DNA of 64,000 nucleotides from Actinomycetes bacterium. GTDB taxonomy: Bacteria > Actinomycetota > Actinomycetes > S36-B12 > GCA-2699445. The notes below the pieces were generated by a model. That model did not search any database. It was given only the letters and a program-made list of their open reading frames with translations, and was not told where the DNA came from. Position 1 is the stretch's first letter; every line of letters begins with the position of its first letter. Made by a program: the position numbers and the translations under genes. Of the stretch, positions 22,383-23,776 are shown in pieces. The DNA lies in assembly GCA_022599915.1 (NCBI GenBank), contig JAHZLH010000053.1, positions 1 through 64,000 of the forward strand, read 5' to 3'.

Positions 22383-22745
22383 GGGGGTGACAGGTTTCGA
22401 CAACGAATGTCGAGACGGGAGAAGCGAGCCGAGAAACCACTGTGATCTCGTAAACCTTCGGTGGAAAACTATAGGTGCCAAACAAAACAAGGGCACCGTC
22501 GCTCTCGCTGCCTAACAGCGAAAAGTGACGCGTTCGGCGGGAATTGTCCCCGCACCGTCGGGCGTCGTGAGGGGACTCACCAAAGGCCCGGGCCACCCGG
22601 GTCGGCGGAACATTTTTAGTGGCTGAGACCGCGTTCTCTGCGGAGTCGTAAGAAGCAGAGAGGTCGAGAACGCGCTACGCCGACTGCGCTCGGAGAAGTC
22701 CCGAATCTGCACCGTTGGACCCGGGTTCGATTCCCGGCACCTCCA
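22383..22745 (+). ncRNA. ssrA: Transfer-messenger RNA (tmRNA)
   Basis: A one-piece tmRNA of about 363 nt. The 5' arm GGGGGTG (22383-22389) pairs with CACCTCC (22738-22744) to form the acceptor stem, and the T arm CCGGG-TTCGATT-CCCGG lies just before it. The tag reading frame is 22477-22515: GCC resume codon, tag AKQNKGTVALAA, then TAA. The ending ALAA is the standard proteolysis signal. CCA is not encoded: the acceptor stem is followed by ACAA. SmpB is encoded 1.9 kb upstream. Confidence 0.95.
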
Positions 22746-22752
22746 CAACGAC

Positions 22753-22781: not shown

Positions 22782-22952
22782 GGTGTTGTTTGGGTTTGTT
22801 TTTCGGGTGGTTGTCCCTGAAGAGCGCGACTTGCCGCACGCCTAAGTTTCAACTGCCGAGAGCTGGCTTCGCTCACTGCGGCCGGAATAGTCGAAACGGC
22901 CTCAAACGTATTCCTCGGTCGCTATCGTCGGCAGCAACAGAGGAGGCGGTAG

Positions 22953-23105
22953 ATGTTTGCCCTCGCCGTTGTCGGTTTTCTCGTGGCGTTCGGATTGGTC
23001 CTATCCGGTCGCCGCAAGCCCGCTATCGCGATAGCAGTGGTGCTCATGGGGGTCTGCATTGCTTTCTACTATCTGCATAACTATGAAGTGGACTGGCCAT
23101 GGTGA
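22953..23105 (+). CDS. Small membrane protein, DUF5993-like
   Basis: A 50-residue protein with two hydrophobic segments, residues 1-17 (MFALAVVGFLVAFGLVL) and 25-40 (IAIAVVLMGVCIAFYY), separated by the basic loop SGRRKPA and ending HNYEVDWPW. An excellent GAGGAGG ribosome site precedes the ATG. The stop overlaps the next start in ATGGTGA, so the two genes are translationally coupled. Size, topology and the adjacent DsbB-like gene fit the DUF5993 family, which I recall beside disulfide-formation genes; the family name is not proven by the sequence. Confidence 0.7.
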   Translation: MFALAVVGFLVAFGLVLSGRRKPAIAIAVVLMGVCIAFYYLHNYEVDWPW

Positions 23106-23776
23106 ACGACGAAGTGGCCTCGGCCGGGAGTAACGAAAATAGTCAGTCCGGCGAACGCAGCCTGTCAGCTCTTTTCAGCGACAACAAGAAGTTTGAACTG
23201 CTTTCCGATAGTCAGGCCAACAGCCTCTTCAGGTTTTTCAACTACTTTGGCTTGATCGTTCCCATGCTCGTGGTGCTAACCGCCATGGGATATCAAGTCA
23301 TCGAAGACGACCTACCTTGTTCGCACTGCAACATGCAAAGACTGGGCTACTTCATGCTTGCTCTGGGCCCAGCACTGAACCTGAGGTTTGGCTTTCGGCC
23401 AAGTCACTATGGCATCAGCCTGGCGGGTGCATTCTTCTTGGGTGCTGTCGCTCTGGACATGATGGTTCGCATCGCGAATCAAAACCTTCCGGGGTGGGGT
23501 CCCAAGGCGCTAGGGCTGCACATGTATGGCTGGTCACTGGTTATCGCGATCATCGGTGGGATTGCTCTGGTCATCATGCTGCTGTGGGATCGGCAGTTTG
23601 AGCTCAGCCGTATGAAGGAACACCGACCAAGTAAGAAAGCATCTGGGCTGTTGATCGCGGCTTTCGTCATCGCCTTCATCGTTATCGGTTTGGATGTAGT
23701 GTCAGTCGTTCTTGAGTGTGGCCCTGGGATTTGTCCAGACACACCACCCACCAACTACCCCTTCTCGCCCTTCTAG
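23099..23776 (+). CDS. DsbB-like disulfide bond formation protein
   Basis: A 225-residue membrane protein with a 47-residue cytoplasmic leader and about five transmembrane helices. After the first helix comes LPCSHCNMQRLGYF, the DsbB signature PCxxCxxQR, with Cys74 and Cys77 as the quinone-linked redox pair. DsbB proteins normally carry a second cysteine pair in the second periplasmic loop. That loop (residues 122-142) has none. Instead Cys207 and Cys212 (LECGPGICPD) follow an extra fifth helix at the extracytoplasmic C-terminus. The protein probably reoxidises a thioredoxin-like partner not encoded here. It starts inside the stop of the preceding small gene. Confidence 0.85.
   Translation: MVNDEVASAGSNENSQSGERSLSALFSDNKKFELLSDSQANSLFRFFNYFGLIVPMLVVLTAMGYQVIEDDLPCSHCNMQRLGYFMLALGPALNLRFGFRPSHYGISLAGAFFLGAVALDMMVRIANQNLPGWGPKALGLHMYGWSLVIAIIGGIALVIMLLWDRQFELSRMKEHRPSKKASGLLIAAFVIAFIVIGLDVVSVVLECGPGICPDTPPTNYPFSPF

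Follow-up and report, generated by a model that had tools for sequence, protein, structure and literature searches.

Where does a DsbB-like enzyme keep its second cysteine pair when the loop that should carry it has no cysteines, and what is the very small gene that overlaps its start? Textbook DsbB has two cysteine pairs, each in a fixed loop, and passes electrons from one to the other. The stretch of DNA analysed here (the window, 64,000 nucleotides) carries a gene pair for which a preliminary description had proposed a rewired electron path, with the second pair moved to the outer C-terminus and a micro-protein as a possible stabilising or quinone-site subunit.

Both open reading frames of that description exist on the forward strand. 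The micro-protein gene (22,953 to 23,105, 50 amino acids) has a strong Shine–Dalgarno sequence, AGGAGG, at 22,941 to 22,946, 6 nt ahead of its ATG, and it overlaps the start of the dsbB-like gene (23,099 to 23,776, 225 amino acids) through the 7 nt ATGGTGA at 23,099 to 23,105. The same 7-nt overlap is present in loci L074 and L075. Since the ribosome site is strong on the micro-gene, and that of the dsbB-like gene is weak at best and lies inside the micro-gene, re-initiation at the overlap is the likely route to the enzyme. RNA folding at the dsbB start was not above shuffles (z 0.66), a promoter scan at the window locus found none, and the one terminator-like site 3′ of the nearby tmRNA gene was not above shuffles.

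The 225-residue protein matches the Pfam family DsbB (PF02600) over residues 45–117, with 28 bits against a cut-off of 22.1. It contains cysteines at 74, 77, 207 and 212 and nowhere else; residues 78 to 206 are free of them, as is the TM3–TM4 outer loop. The first outer loop has the CxxC and arginine of a classical DsbB (C74, C77 and R81; the codons of C74-S-H-C77, the quinone-side motif, lie at 23,318 to 23,329, forward strand), and the classical second pair in the TM3–TM4 outer loop is absent; the CxxC and this absence are as claimed. The other pair, C207-G-P-G-I-C212 (23,717 to 23,734, forward strand), is predicted to be at the outer C-terminus. Hydropathy and charge predict five transmembrane helices and an outer, cysteine-bearing tail without lysine or arginine, although the second helix (81–95) is below the hydropathy threshold and was taken from the model and the relatives. 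An AlphaFold2 model, built from nine sequences and of low confidence (mean pLDDT 61.5), has helices at 37–69, 75–97, 101–127, 133–164 and 179–207. The C-terminus is thereby predicted to be outside and not cytoplasmic; relatives of the group called B below, which have a further hydrophobic segment after the tail pair, are consistent with an outer location.

For this low-confidence model the top rank in VIA-align went to E. coli DsbB, in two matches (Z 8.6, 121 residues, rmsd 5.5, model residues 40–167; and Z 8.3, 115 residues, rmsd 4.8, model residues 43–162). Foldseek against the PDB gave nothing at E <= 0.001, with E. coli DsbB 14th at E 0.54. A family profile aligned with E. coli DsbB over helices 1–3 (chain E 0.015), and a weak second stretch pairs LGLEMPQW of E. 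coli DsbB with LGLHLYTW of the window protein at the start of helix 4. From the VIA-align ranking and the profile alignment, helices 1–4 are read as those of DsbB, with a shortened second outer loop and an added helix 5 and tail.

The relatives fall into four groups, A–D, read from alignment A1 and a per-locus table, and a paralogue clade, E; the letters are labels of this analysis. Group A is window-like, with CSHC or CAHC and a tail CG-x-G-x-C, and contains eight further loci, mostly actinobacterial metagenome bins. Group B has CPLC and a tail CGLGMC or similar. Group C comprises Proteobacteria with CPLC or CPIC, a C-x4-C tail and a partner usually annotated as DUF5993; in the Legionella and Vibrio copies the small gene is there but unannotated. 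Group D retains CPLC and DUF5993, and has a tail EGFxWVLPDDP or similar from which both cysteines are absent. Across 32 rows spanning groups A–D, P39, C40, C43, R47, H107 and W111 (alignment A1 numbering) are invariant, the last five being C74, C77, R81, H141 and W145 of the window protein.

The C-terminal C-x4-C was found in 52 of 52 full-length matches of groups A–C and in 0 of 14 group D matches, counts that leave out L043 and L047, whose ends are cut by contigs. A tree was made from 45 A–C and 14 D rows, once duplicates and rows containing unknown letters had been dropped and L075 had been included; both tail cysteines are kept in all 45 full-length A–C rows. The claim that the C-terminal cysteines are conserved therefore holds for groups A–C and fails for group D (lost in 14/14), and the co-occurrence of gene pair and C-terminal motif has the same boundary: both are found in A–C, whereas group D has the micro-protein without the tail pair. 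The joint absence of both tail cysteines in group D is what would be expected of a pair. The tree is unrooted, without an outgroup, and does not give the direction of the change in the tail pair (gain or loss). As a side observation, the nearest congener of the window has a decayed second dsbB copy (L102, 3860–4153) whose tail reads SS instead of CG and so lacks the first of its cysteines. In two group D loci the micro-gene/dsbB pair sits between proteasomal ATPase and Pup-ligase-family genes, by Pfam in L095 (1911–6147) and by eye in L096 (2413–6645).

Group E shows the opposite arrangement. It was sampled as 10 of the longer ones among the 35 dsbB-like matches without a DUF5993 match. In these paralogues the CxxC is lost in 9/10 (PPSELGVLQR and the like), L083 keeping CALC, and the tail pair is present as C-x4-C in nine and as C-x3-C in L088. 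By eye, the otherwise invariant loop histidine is replaced in all ten. Group E is one clade and counts as one event; in the tree it joins group B, with the two-pair L083 basal, and the positions of E_L086 and E_L088, badly cut rows, were not used. In L084 the group E paralogue has, by Pfam, tail-sheath, tail-tube and DUF4280 genes from a contractile injection cluster as its neighbours, and by eye the neighbourhood is the same in L086 and L087.

What could such an enzyme do? We propose a two-gene, self-contained, quinone-linked thiol oxidoreductase, a proposal that we hold to be evenly poised between right and wrong. C74-x2-C77 and R81 would lie at the outer end of helices 1–2, beside a quinone (menaquinone is our guess), and the TM3–TM4 outer loop would be short and cysteine-free. 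C207-x4-C212, on the outer tail, would be reduced by a secreted thioredoxin-fold partner and would in turn reduce C74–C77. It speaks against this proposal that no thioredoxin-like gene adjoins the pair in the window and that the host genome already has a VKOR and a DsbA-like protein. The micro-protein, which would be made just ahead of the enzyme and coupled to it in translation, would be a subunit of two helices that gives stability to the membrane scaffold, with its outer tail near the active site. Of all this, the structure and coupling of the genes, the conservation and the homology to DsbB are shown; the topology is predicted, and the direction of electron flow, the partner, the quinone and the contact between the subunits are inferred.

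That two cysteine pairs are conserved on one predicted side of the membrane argues for the relay from the tail to the CxxC and into the quinone, and we give it an even chance. An obligatory relay is plausible for such an arrangement, yet group D, without the tail pair, and group E, mostly without the CxxC, are the chief evidence against it: either pair can be missing while the other is kept, and the tail pair may be structural. Of the rewired path, what stands is an outer-tail pair conserved in groups A–C; as an obligatory relay the path is not supported. The structural reading, in which C207–C212 would be a disulfide pinning the tail to the helix bundle and C74–C77 the sole redox centre, acting on its partner directly, by oxidation or reduction, as in DsbI-type enzymes, gains from group D, which lacks the pair and keeps the neighbouring PDDP motif, the CxxC and the micro-protein, from group E, which keeps the tail pair without the CxxC, and from DsbI itself, which has no second pair in the consulted part of PMC4460558. 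It has to explain, however, why both cysteines persist in all 45 A–C rows, on the face predicted to be outer, which is also that of the second pair in classical DsbB, and we regard it as rather unlikely.

The micro-protein has two predicted helices (2–18 and 23–47), an RRK turn and an outer tail, HNYEVDWPW. It scores 16.6 bits against Pfam DUF5993 (PF19455), under the cut-off of 27. An hhalign comparison of group A micro-proteins with DUF5993 relatives gave a probability of 85.5 and E 5.7e-6 over 40 columns, for one profile pair, and with this match and their shared position upstream of dsbB the group A micro-proteins are treated as probable diverged relatives of DUF5993, not as established members. 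A cysteine in the second helix, C35 (window 23,055 to 23,057), is common to group A micro-proteins; the DUF5993 relatives in alignment A4 have no cysteine there.

Could the micro-gene serve only as a leader, translated so that the dsbB start is opened, its protein having no function? The 7-nt overlap and the strong ribosome site on the micro-gene are what a leader would have. Against this, the micro-gene is under purifying selection (dN 0.19 and dS 2.18 between the window and its nearest relative), the outer histidine of the protein is invariant (18 rows of alignment A4 and 5 rows of A3), the gene recurs in Proteobacteria upstream of dsbB with varying spacings, and the small protein Dba stabilises DsbI, according to the consulted part of PMC3167755. 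We consider the leader explanation highly improbable. By analogy with the effect of Dba on DsbI, the micro-protein is most likely a stabilising subunit, and its proposed role as a stabilising partner has gained from this experimental precedent and from the widespread coupling of the genes.

This coupling was followed across the order of the host, where 72 of 148 sampled genomes have an enzyme match (E <= 0.001). In all 30 loci fetched with the enzyme (those returned by the enzyme search of the host's order), the ORF directly upstream is small and hydrophobic and has an outer histidine tail. Because the finder uses the tail motif and is thus not neutral, it was also run on 199 ORFs of >= 200 amino acids, where it gave 7 upstream matches, all 7 at dsbB-like genes. 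Among the loci fetched with DUF5993 (L031–L060) it recovers 29 of 30; the DUF5993 match of L035 sits further upstream. The Pfam DUF5993 profile itself finds 53 places in 49 of the 148 genomes at E <= 0.01, 50 of which are followed within 500 nt, in the same orientation, by a dsbB-like match. Seen from the enzyme, 50 of 85 dsbB-like matches have such a DUF5993 match and 35 do not, the 35 including the window, whose own micro-protein is below detection of this profile. On proteobacterial plasmids the small gene is directly upstream of dsbB in 8/8 cases; on the Legionella plasmid L063 the DUF5993-like gene (2733–2885) is unannotated in the record.

The locus is therefore not unique: the gene pair is widespread in the host's order and in Proteobacteria, and is already known to annotation pipelines. 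A DNA search of E. coli genomes with a Salmonella query found no homologues, and viral contigs gave one relative with A5 as query and none with A6. An anti-phage role was discarded, as there was no PADLOC match.

Two narrower associations were also tried. That the micro-protein tracks the C-terminal cysteines is ruled out by group D, which keeps DUF5993 and has lost the pair. That it tracks the CxxC was suggested by the lack of DUF5993 matches at group E and is weakened by shortened micro-proteins without the histidine tail, found with a custom profile upstream of 8/10 group E paralogues. The micro-protein goes with the membrane scaffold and not with the tail cysteines.

Some neighbourhoods raise the possibility that the enzyme is reductive or serves in metal stress, by maintaining outer thiols in the reduced state or by dealing with copper, and is not a general DsbA oxidase. 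In the searched literature DUF5993 was met in one paper only, where, in the part consulted, its gene is among the most copper-shock-responsive in two Erwinia amylovora comparisons (PMC12542790). Two proteobacterial copies point the same way, L067 beside phytochelatin synthase and gamma-glutamyltransferase, and L061 beside the nickel/cobalt efflux gene RcnA and a metal-sensing repressor, as does DsbI, which is probably in a reductive pathway (PMC12428200, as far as its consulted part goes). That said, metal or thiol neighbours occur at just 2 of 7 plasmid loci (L062 carries no annotation), and by eye there are none in the window. A reductive or metal-stress role thus seems improbable to us, though clearly less so than the leader.

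In some bacteria of lakes and the ocean, the gene pair also seems to be mobile as a very small DNA cassette. A tRNA or tmRNA gene lies within 0.7 kb in 6 of the 9 group A loci (the window and L074–L081), or in about 4 of 7 independent cases once shared contexts are allowed for; none was found around 33 group B and D loci, scanned together with L102 over at most 1.5 kb of flank and over less where the contig ended. In L079 (2157–3810) and L081 (2075–3810) the pair is bounded by perfect 45-nt copies of the 3′ half of the local tRNA-Arg gene, 1609 and 1691 bp apart, respectively, and in L080 (1421–3373) by imperfect repeats that start in the 3′ end of tRNA-Pro, 1696 bp apart. Between the cassettes of L079 and L081, identity is 99.0% over 1179 columns and 97.8% over 403 columns, while their left and right flanks have no similarity, their tRNA-Arg ends differ and their hosts are assigned to different genera (g39 and g27). 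No integrase gene was seen by eye in the cassette segments. In L078 a tRNA-Met end is repeated over 29 nt, with the gene pair outside the repeat, and L074, L075, L076 and L077 have no flanking repeat. These cassettes, with close relatives of the window pair bounded by tRNA repeats, are new here. In L113 (1037–3098) the same tRNA-Arg repeat surrounds a different single large ORF of 374 amino acids, by eye resembling a serine beta-lactamase-family protein, which suggests a cassette hot spot.

In the window, a tmRNA gene (22,383 to 22,746, forward strand; tag peptide AKQNKGTVALAA) ends 206 nt upstream of the micro-gene and is, by position only, a candidate old integration site. Since the tmRNA is near, yet no second repeat of its end was found near the pair, mobility of the window's own copy is only suggested.

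Taken together, a DUF5993-type micro-protein and a five-helix DsbB may form an obligate two-subunit redox enzyme with outer tails completing the active site. It would be a portable module, in pelagic actinobacteria an integrase-free cassette of 1.6–1.7 kb at tRNA genes that moves between genera, whose cysteine pairs evolve separably, one clade lacking the tail pair and another, in a contractile-injection cluster where checked, largely lacking the CxxC. We offer this joint reading tentatively, as somewhat less probable than its relay alone. The branch concerned is large and little studied; its second pair is carried by the tail that follows helix 5, and a micro-protein accompanies the enzyme in nearly every locus examined. 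Its natural members without one or the other pair are ready variants with which to study the need for a relay, the role of the second pair and the contribution of a micro-protein subunit. A pair moving alone, as a tiny cassette, suggests that no dedicated partner has to come along for it to function in a new host.

The closest characterised precedent, by analogy, is Dba–DsbI of Campylobacter jejuni. In the consulted part of PMC3167755, Dba is a small predicted inner-membrane protein whose gene is directly upstream of dsbI and translationally coupled to it; blocking or truncating dba abolishes DsbI synthesis, Dba translation being required, and in E. coli the enzyme is degraded when Dba is missing. 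DsbI has five helices, carries a CxxC and an arginine in its first outer loop, lacks a second pair in the TM3–TM4 loop, and ends in a C-terminal periplasmic beta-propeller (PMC4460558, consulted part). According to a figure legend in a 2025 review (PMC12428200), it does not interact with DsbA1 or DsbA2 and probably acts in a reductive pathway. The window has the same order of a small membrane protein gene directly upstream of a five-helix DsbB-like enzyme, and its enzyme shares with DsbI the predicted five helices, the CxxC and the lack of a loop pair. Unlike DsbI, it has no beta-propeller, but a short C-x4-C tail that ends 13 residues after C212. The NCBIfam model of Campylobacter DsbI matches residues 52–208 (E 2.9e-5) with 22.7 bits, far below its cut-off of 800, and the likeness to Dba is one of gene arrangement.

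With E. coli DsbB the enzyme has in common helices 1–4, the CxxC, the arginine and LGLxxxxW starting helix 4. The second pair of classical DsbB lies in the TM3–TM4 loop (PMC4460558, consulted part), whereas in the window protein this loop is cysteine-free and the pair is predicted outside, after the fifth helix. No paper on a C-terminal DsbB pair, or on DUF5993 with DsbB, was found in the parts of the literature searched, though a 2005 DsbB classification may hold one.

The proteobacterial pairs of DUF5993 and ‘disulfide bond formation protein B’ have the gene order of the window, on plasmids of Serratia, Pantoea, Salmonella and Pandoraea, and in Legionella and Vibrio with the small gene unannotated. 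Their enzymes are about 27–36% identical to the window protein and combine CPLC or CPIC with a C-terminal C-x4-C in 8/8 genes. The window differs in having CSHC in place of CPLC, and a micro-protein tail ending in VDWPW in place of endings such as LNLSF. Lastly, VKOR is another route to quinone-linked disulfide formation, and the VKOR of the host genome, of a different family from the DsbB-like enzyme, is encoded elsewhere (C19) next to a DsbA-like gene. Since the genome already has this VKOR and DsbA-like protein, the micro-protein/dsbB pair is, as far as gene content tells, its second disulfide system.
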